Positions 32,471-33,846 of a stretch of 64,000 nt of DNA are shown here, one piece after another (position 1 is the stretch's first letter; each line of letters opens with the position of its first letter). The position numbers and the translations under genes are program-made. This DNA comes from Natronosalvus amylolyticus. Lineage in GTDB: Archaea > Halobacteriota > Halobacteria > Halobacteriales > Natrialbaceae. The stretch is from positions 3,162,001-3,226,000 of the forward strand of contig NZ_CP101156.1 in assembly GCF_024298845.1 (NCBI RefSeq). Reading direction: 5' to 3'. Under the pieces are notes generated by a model. The model saw only the letters and a list, made by a program, of their open reading frames with translations. It was not told where the DNA came from and did not search any database.

Positions 32471-32821
32471 ATGGAATACACGGTTTCGCGGGAGGGAACC
32501 ACGCTCGTGACGCTCCACGAGGGGACGGATACGACCGCCTGTTCGGCGGCCGAAAAGAAACTCTCGGAGCAGTTGGCCGGGCTCGAGTCGCCGGTTTCTG
32601 TCGTGGAGTGGTCGGTCCTCGAGACGGAGGTGTACGAACACCCGGCGGCGCCGTTCGACCCCTATACGGTGGTCGCGACGTTCCGAATGACGGTCGCTGT
32701 CGACGCCGGCACGGAGAGCGAGGCGATCGACCGGGGGGTTGTGGTGATCGACCAGGTGCTCGAGGACGGCCCGCTCGAGTCGATCACCTACACCGATGAG
32801 GCCGCTGTAAGTACTGTTTGA
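32471..32821 (+). CDS. Small acidic haloarchaeal protein, unknown
   Basis: A 116-residue acidic alpha/beta protein (MEYTVSREGTTLVTLHEG) with a dodecin- or ACT-like alternation of strands and helices by eye: a strand, an acidic helix (TACSAAEKKLSEQLAGL), strands, and a final EAIDRGVVVIDQVLEDGPL helix. I do not recognise the function. It precedes the MoaD/SAMP-like gene by 59 bp, with separate promoters apparent. Confidence 0.65.
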   Translation: MEYTVSREGTTLVTLHEGTDTTACSAAEKKLSEQLAGLESPVSVVEWSVLETEVYEHPAAPFDPYTVVATFRMTVAVDAGTESEAIDRGVVVIDQVLEDGPLESITYTDEAAVSTV

Positions 32822-32880: not shown

Positions 32881-33195
32881 ATGGAACTCGAGTGTCGCTT
32901 TTTCGCCACCTATCGGGAAGCTGTCGGGCAGAAAGAATTGATGCGGACCATCGACGAGGGGACGACCGTTGGCGACGTGCTGACTGCTCTCGAAGCCGAG
33001 TACGAGGGTCTCGAGGGGCAACTGCTGGAGGACGGGGCTATTCGGCCACAGCTAAGCGTCCTGAAAAACGGTCGTGACGTAACACACATGGCCGGCGTCG
33101 AGACGGCACTCGAGGACGGTGACCGATTGTCGGTGTTTCCGCCGGTGGCTGGCGGGTGCGGCCACCGTTGTCGTTCCCCGCAAACGCGGATTTAA
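32881..33195 (+). CDS. MoaD/ThiS-like small modifier (SAMP1 type) with C-terminal extension
   Basis: The 104-residue product has a beta-grasp ubiquitin-like fold: MELECRFFATYREAVGQKEL, TVGDVLTALEAEYEGLEGQL, LSVLKNGRDVTHM and a final SVFPPVAGG. SAMP and MoaD proteins normally stop at the diglycine, whose carboxylate is adenylated and thiolated or conjugated to lysines. Here the frame reads on after GG for 12 residues (CGHRCRSPQTRI). The codon after GG is TGC (33157-33159), one base away from TGA. The start ATG 32881 has a CTTTATG box 27 nt upstream. Without trimming, the protein could not be activated by UbaA/MoeB. Confidence 0.85.
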   Translation: MELECRFFATYREAVGQKELMRTIDEGTTVGDVLTALEAEYEGLEGQLLEDGAIRPQLSVLKNGRDVTHMAGVETALEDGDRLSVFPPVAGGCGHRCRSPQTRI

Positions 33196-33196
33196 G
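33189..33196 (+). promoter_or_regulatory. TATA-like box for the 33220 gene
   Basis: GATTTAAG overlaps the end of the MoaD/SAMP reading frame and lies 27 nt before ATG 33220, consistent with an independent leaderless promoter. Confidence 0.5.
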
Positions 33197-33219: not shown

Positions 33220-33477
33220 ATGGCACGTGTCGAGCGCTCGTTTCGCGGCATCTCCGAACGGCTGACCGTCCGGTATCTCGAGCGACTCGGCGGCGAGCTG
33301 ATCGAGGAGGGTGTCGTCGAGGGTGCGGAGTGGTCGGCATGCTTTTCGTCCGAAACGGTCGGGATCGGGCCGTCGCTGACGCTGACGGAGGTTACCATCG
33401 TTTTCGAGGGCGAGGACTCGACGCTCGAGGACCTGGTGCCGGCGTTCGCGAAGAAGGCGATGCGAGCGGGTGGGTAA
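33220..33477 (+). CDS. MoaD-related C-terminal domain (DUF1952) protein
   Basis: The 85-residue protein MARVERSFRGISERLTVRYLERLGG...FAKKAMRAGG matches the pattern of the stand-alone MoaD-related C-terminal domain (PF09189/DUF1952), found fused behind MoaD in some bacteria. Next to a MoaD/SAMP-like gene it probably works with that protein in molybdenum-cofactor or sulfur transfer. It also ends in GG, which is notable but may be coincidental. It is followed after 3 nt by the next gene, suggesting co-transcription. Confidence 0.75.
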   Translation: MARVERSFRGISERLTVRYLERLGGELIEEGVVEGAEWSACFSSETVGIGPSLTLTEVTIVFEGEDSTLEDLVPAFAKKAMRAGG

Positions 33478-33480
33478 GCC

Positions 33481-33846
33481 GTGAGCGAAGATCCCATCGA
33501 TGGGCAGGTACTGTTGTTGACGGGTGCGAAAGCGAGCATTACGCCCACCCAACTCCCGCCGTTGATCGAGCGCGTTCAGGAAGCGCTCGCTACGGAACTC
33601 GAAGCGCTTGCGACGCAATACGAATGCATCTACGAAACCGATGGCCGAGCGGTCTTTCTGGTCGAAGCGGGCTACTGGGAGGATCTCGGCGCGGAGCTTG
33701 CCCTCGAACGTCGGGAGTGGAACGCCGTTCGACGGGCCCACACCGAGCAGTTCACCCGTTTCGGTCGACGCTGTGATCGACTCGCCGAGTTCGAAGCCGC
33801 ACTCGAGATCCGTGATCCTGTCATCGTCGCTCGCCCGTACGAGTGA
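33481..33846 (+). CDS. Conserved-type haloarchaeal protein, unknown
   Basis: A 121-residue acidic protein starting at GTG 33481 (SEDPIDGQVLLLTGAKASITP). Helical segments with ERVQEALATELEALATQYECIYE are followed by FLVEAGYWEDLGAELALERREW and RRAHTEQFTRFGRRCDRL. No known motif. The 3-nt spacing to the DUF1952 gene suggests a shared operon and possibly a related role. Confidence 0.7.
   Translation: MSEDPIDGQVLLLTGAKASITPTQLPPLIERVQEALATELEALATQYECIYETDGRAVFLVEAGYWEDLGAELALERREWNAVRRAHTEQFTRFGRRCDRLAEFEAALEIRDPVIVARPYE

Follow-up and report, generated by a model that had tools for sequence, protein, structure and literature searches.

SAMP3, the ubiquitin-like modifier encoded in the window (the whole stretch of 64,000 nucleotides that was analysed), is probably made as a precursor whose diglycine is exposed by a JAMM metalloprotease; we infer the translation of the C-terminal tail, its removal, and the role of JAMM. 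The orthologs suggest that many haloarchaea, roughly two in five of the related species, make SAMP3 as a JAMM-trimmed precursor. To our knowledge, SAMPs are generally described with the reactive diglycine as their encoded end.

Ubiquitin-like precursors and their cleavage by JAMM after the diglycine are already known, including for the SAMPs of one other archaeon. No report of SAMP3 extensions or fusions in haloarchaea was found in the open-access literature, which does not by itself prove novelty. The recurrent precursor form of SAMP3, the signature in the first tail residue, and the natural fusion to a second diglycine protein appear to be undescribed there. If many haloarchaea make SAMP precursors, JAMM would have a maturation role besides deconjugation, and eukaryote-like proteolytic maturation of ubiquitin-like modifiers would be common across an archaeal group that can be grown in culture. 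The precursor reading is testable in Haloferax volcanii with its SAMP and jamm1 mutants.

The extended reading frame

The open reading frame spans positions 32,881 to 33,195 of the forward strand and starts with ATG at 32,881. The first 92 residues (32,881–33,156) form the SAMP3 body, a predicted beta-grasp ubiquitin-like domain that terminates in ...SVFPPVAGG. The profile of the ThiS family (PF02597) matched the body with 66.8 bits (E 2.5e-18), and the alignment reaches the last profile column at the diglycine. The diglycine is encoded by GGC GGG at 33,151–33,156 and is the expected site of cleavage and activation. The window protein has A90, G91, and G92, and its diglycine is not at the encoded C-terminus. 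The next codon (33,157–33,159) is TGC and not a stop, and it is followed by eleven codons and TAA at 33,193–33,195. The preliminary description had proposed that the frame passes PPVAGG into 12 additional residues by way of this TGC, which is confirmed. The tail (33,157–33,192, forward strand) is CGHRCRSPQTRI, and it is the proposed leaving peptide. The TAA stop lies within ATTTAAG (33,190–33,196, forward strand), a TATA-like box about 27 bases 5' of the next open reading frame and a putative promoter of a leaderless transcript.

The closest named relative is the gene of Natronosalvus hydrolyticus, with a body that is 93% identical. This sister gene reads GGG TGA where the window reads GGG TGC, so base 33,159 had rightly been singled out as the decisive position. 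The intergenic DNA near the stop shows several further differences between the window and the sister species. The body of the window gene compared with that of the sister gene gave dN 0.035, dS 0.42, and a ratio of 0.083; the stop may have been lost at any time since the split of the two, so that the ratio is no proof of selection on the extended form. The SAMP3 body itself is by these values under purifying selection, which speaks against a decayed gene. A single extension of this kind is short and any lost stop could give one; its recurrence with the diglycine kept, together with the bias in the first tail residue, exceeds chance.

Identification of the window protein as SAMP3

The host genome is haloarchaeal, has 4.2 Mb, and contains three ThiS-family genes of which one is of the SAMP3 type. 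The best solved relative of the window protein was 2m19 (126.8 bits), to which the fold search gave the title HVO_2177 of Haloferax volcanii, and the structures of SAMP1 reached about 43–47 bits. HVO_2177 is SAMP3 (PMC4500146). It carries Ala90 immediately before the diglycine, giving an AGG end (PMC7305310), as does the window protein, and it forms isopeptide conjugates via its terminal Gly (PMC7305310, PMC4500146). The SAMP1 ortholog of the host genome is a separate paralog with a VSGG end that scored 82.7 bits and is nearer to SAMP1. On the best match to HVO_2177, the Ala90 before the diglycine, and the separate SAMP1 gene, the window protein is identified by sequence as an ortholog of SAMP3. 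MoaD or SAMP1 identity, to which the model NF041918 had pointed, was considered and rejected because TIGR01682 scored 33 of 66 bits, which is below its cut-off, the SAMP1 ortholog is located elsewhere, and 2m19 is the best match. Of the earlier label "SAMP/MoaD-like", the SAMP family part is thus retained and sharpened to SAMP3, and the MoaD part is dropped.

The window protein and SAMP3 of H. volcanii share about 62–65% identity over 92 residues of equal length, and both exhibit the ...PPVAGG end. The SAMP3 orthologs examined from the genus Haloferax stop exactly at the diglycine, whereas the window protein continues for 12 residues. The NCBIfam model NF041918 ("SAMP1" equivalog) matches both SAMP1 and SAMP3 orthologs well over its cut-off and is therefore unspecific, for which reason SAMP3 genes probably carry SAMP1 annotation in databases. 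A third SAMP-like paralog (G000:C1:1080164-1080451, L206) has an SVYGG end and, at E 1e-18, was found in 22 of 116 haloarchaeal genomes.

Recurrence of extensions in haloarchaea

SAMP3 orthologs were collected from the class (110 genes), and the C-terminus of each was read in its own frame. All 110 orthologs keep the diglycine, and 43 continue past it. The orthologs comprise 67 genes with an immediate stop, 36 genes with tails of 1–19 residues, and seven in-frame fusions with the adjacent gene. Most tails have 1–6 residues, and their sequences are unrelated between genera. Natrialba hulunbeirensis, for example, a culturable species with an extended gene, has the tail GRPQP. In a named set of 80 SAMP3 loci that overlaps the 110, the diglycine is present in 80/80 and the gene is extended in 31. 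Parsimony on the SAMP3 gene tree, which is poorly resolved for such a short gene, gave at least 11 state changes. The extension is uniform in some genera (5/5 in g5, 5/5 in g47, and 4/4 in g46), and another genus has none (0/16). A conserved role for the tail or its two cysteines was rejected, as the tails of relatives are unrelated and the cysteines are not kept. In one SAMP3 gene (L051, G039), the tail GAGGGGAGGGAGSDSGSSL seems to have lengthened through slippage at GGT/GCT repeats directly after the diglycine.

Extensions were also found in the same class for SAMP1 (7/30) and for the third paralog (4/22). Among the unusual cases are a SAMP1-type gene that runs 37 residues beyond the diglycine (ERWAVTRAV...; L012, G005) and a third paralog whose body contains a long insert and whose tail is SGPRPCERRRSS (L019, G006).

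The ThiS-family proteins of outgroups from other classes of the phylum terminate at the diglycine in 26 of 28 cases, and the remaining two have one additional residue. The frequency of extension thus differs between haloarchaeal SAMP3 (43/110) and the outgroup (2/28; p = 0.001).

The first tail residue

The first tail residue was counted once per gene and genus, which gave 40 distinct tails, and A, G, S, T, and C were taken as small. A small residue stands first in 33 of the 40 tails against 40/112 (36%) at positions P2'–P6' (p = 3e-7), where the small class was defined after the tails had been seen and the tails of related genera are partly dependent. The codons after the stops of unextended genes encode small residues in 141/396 cases (p = 1e-8 against the first tail residue). 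If the stop codons in use changed by one substitution each, 19–33% small residues would be expected. When one count was taken per family, small residues made up 20/27 at the first position versus 8/26 at P2'. None of the 40 tails starts with D, E, K, or P. Against the precursor reading stand the few tails whose first residue is R, H, N, Q, V, or W; most of these have 1–2 residues and overlap with the next start codon. All seven fused genes among the 110 have G, S, T, or A directly after the diglycine.

The window tail starts with Cys-Gly, and Cys belongs to the small class. The ubiquitin precursor of Caldiarchaeum (CsUb) also has Cys-Gly after its diglycine; the change Cys79Gly makes its cleavage by the JAMM protease CsRpn11 faster, and both Cys79Glu and Gly80Trp block JAMM cleavage (PMC6043591). 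The bias in the first residue fits an endoprotease cut after the diglycine and this published steric requirement of JAMM.

The adjacent diglycine protein and SAMP3 fusions

The gene that follows SAMP3 (33,220–33,477, forward strand) encodes a protein of 85 residues with a KAMRAGG end. It is a DUF1952-like protein with a predicted TBP-like fold, and a tblastn search against the 110 loci showed that some relatives have it in one continuous frame with SAMP3. The 85-residue protein of the window alone had no sequence match in Pfam or PDB, and a Pfam search of its own genome for DUF1952 also gave no match. One member of its family matches DUF1952 (PF09189, E 2.7e-5), and the link to DUF1952 is based on this relative and on the fold comparison of the fused protein. 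The family arCOG06308 was described as TBP-like, GG-ended, specific to haloarchaea, and located beside MoaD-like genes, and was proposed to be modifier-like (Makarova and Koonin, 2010; PMC2948915). The 85-residue protein is judged from its features and gene order, not from an accession, to correspond to arCOG06308. Two small uncharacterised proteins flank the pair on the same strand, at 32,471–32,821 and 33,481–33,846. Both had no family match, and tblastn located them beside other SAMP3 loci too (47/110 and 54/110, respectively).

The end of the 85-residue protein is strictly kept. In the named set, AGG is its end in 44/44 cases and KAMRAGG is nearly invariant, as if a free diglycine were essential. 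The terminus is exactly KAMRAGG in 63/63 complete copies, and SAMP3 is extended in 30/63 of those loci (p = 2e-11, with counts that ignore shared descent). Both genes share a common mutational setting, which suggests that loss of the stop is tolerated in SAMP3 but not in the neighbour. It is the DNA that maintains the free diglycine end of the neighbour, on which a ubiquitin-specific protease would not act.

The named species with fused genes include Halostella pelagica, Halorubrum alkaliphilum, Halobellus captivus, Halobaculum gomorrense, and Haloglomus halophilum. The model of the fused Halostella protein (mean pLDDT 85.5, pTM 0.51) exhibits two domains, the first of them a beta-grasp domain, which are joined by AGGS at residues 91–94 with low confidence. 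Its best match in the PDB is 1v8c, the two-domain MoaD-related protein of Thermus (169 columns, E 1.4e-14). The TM-score over the whole chain is only 0.44 (rmsd 17), which is due to the different orientation of the domains. The Thermus thermophilus protein consists of a ubiquitin-like domain and DUF1952, and its order of domains equals that of the fused haloarchaeal SAMP3 with the diglycine internal, whereas the window has separate genes. In the window, SAMP3 and its neighbour are two genes in the same frame, separated by TAA and 24 bases. Since they share the frame and the stop of the tail lies within the TATA-like box of the neighbour, the window arrangement is one codon short of a fusion. 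In-frame fusions were observed at loci L102, L103, L109, L110, L121, L130, and L133 and at L276, L279, L292, L296, L301, L305, L306, and L307, with linkers of a few to about 45 residues, several of which are rich in D, E, and P.

It is conceivable, though doubtful, that SAMP3 with its diglycine and the GG-ended, TBP-like neighbour constitute a two-part precursor, adjacent or fused, and that JAMM would split the fused form into two proteins with a GG end each. The second product would then be a modifier or carrier outside the beta-grasp fold. The strictly GG-ended neighbour merits attention in this respect.

The proposed precursor model

Genes of the Prok-JAB family (PF14464) were found in 40/40 haloarchaeal genomes tested, and the genome of the window has two copies. 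The JAMM1 motif HSHPRGPPVPSQTD (HxHP-x5-PSxxD) is intact in this genome, which also has two E1 genes of the ThiF family. HvJAMM1 orthologs remove SAMPs from conjugates in haloarchaea. In vitro, HvJAMM1 cut a linear SAMP1-MoaE fusion precisely after the diglycine, and the cleavage of this fusion in vivo depended on both jamm1 and the diglycine (PMC4443979). JAMM presence was tried as a predictor of extension and rejected: JAMM genes were also found in 26/28 outgroup genomes, whose SAMPs nearly always end strictly at the diglycine. JAMM therefore permits extension without predicting it.

According to the proposed model, the tailed SAMP3 precursor would be translated, and a JAMM metalloprotease, with the HvJAMM1 ortholog as the most likely candidate, would recognise the ubiquitin-like body and the extended C-terminus. 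JAMM would cut after the diglycine and release the short tail. The exposed Gly would be adenylated by an E1 of the UbaA type and would then serve in conjugation or sulfur transfer. Selection on stops after the diglycine would be weak because the end is restored by JAMM; tails would arise repeatedly and drift, and at times the frame would join the neighbouring gene.

The precursors of eukaryotic ubiquitin, SUMO, and NEDD8 and the fusions of ubiquitin to ribosomal proteins likewise have residues or a whole protein after the diglycine and are matured by isopeptidases, which belong to protease families other than that in the JAMM model for SAMP3. The engineered SAMP1-MoaE fusion is also a SAMP with extra sequence that is cut by a haloarchaeal JAMM1 after the diglycine, but it involves a paralog and is not a natural haloarchaeal precursor. 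In Caldiarchaeum subterraneum, both the CsUb precursor and the CsSAMP precursors extend beyond the diglycine and are cleaved by JAMM, the latter by CsJAMM, and the tail of the CsUb precursor also starts with Cys-Gly (PMC6043591). CsUb is related to ubiquitin, is encoded in an E1/E2/E3 operon, and is not a SAMP3 ortholog, and its cleavage was seen, whereas the window case is read from genes.

Alternative explanations

The preliminary description had offered a JAMM-cleaved pro-form, a lost function, and a sequencing error. The pro-form is the best supported of these, given the 43 extended orthologs, the diglycine in every ortholog, the small first residue, and the intact JAMM1, and the cleavage itself would be the presumed step. 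A lost function, in which the extended SAMP3 is dead or its diglycine end is abandoned, is very improbable: adenylation of the terminal Gly would indeed require processing, but the dN/dS ratio is low, the diglycine is present in every extended ortholog, and the genome has no other gene of the SAMP3 type in its set of three ThiS-family genes. An error in sequencing or assembly, with a stop as the real codon at 33,157–33,159 and the gene ending at the diglycine, would be quite unlikely. The nearest relative has TGA there, one base apart, but the surrounding intergenic DNA also differs at several positions, and extensions are fixed across whole genera so that an error is not needed as an explanation.

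Removal of the tail might instead be the work of a carboxypeptidase, of general cytosolic proteolysis, or of some other activity that trims a disordered tail to the diglycine. This agrees with most tails having 1–6 residues and resembling unconstrained DNA past the first residue. We consider such trimming unlikely, since 7/110 orthologs carry as their tail a complete folded domain that an exopeptidase would not neatly remove, and the bias in the first tail residue is in line with an endoprotease cut after the diglycine. A protein that works uncleaved, with the diglycine as an internal linker as may hold for Thermus 1v8c, would agree with the match of the fused haloarchaeal form to both domains of 1v8c, which was crystallised as an intact chain. 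This possibility has a slim chance in view of the unrelated tails of 1–19 residues, which lack a common function, and the strict conservation of the diglycine, which suggests its continued use as an end. The AGG end of HVO_2177 and its isopeptide conjugates via the terminal Gly (PMC7305310, PMC4500146) also argue for a free diglycine.
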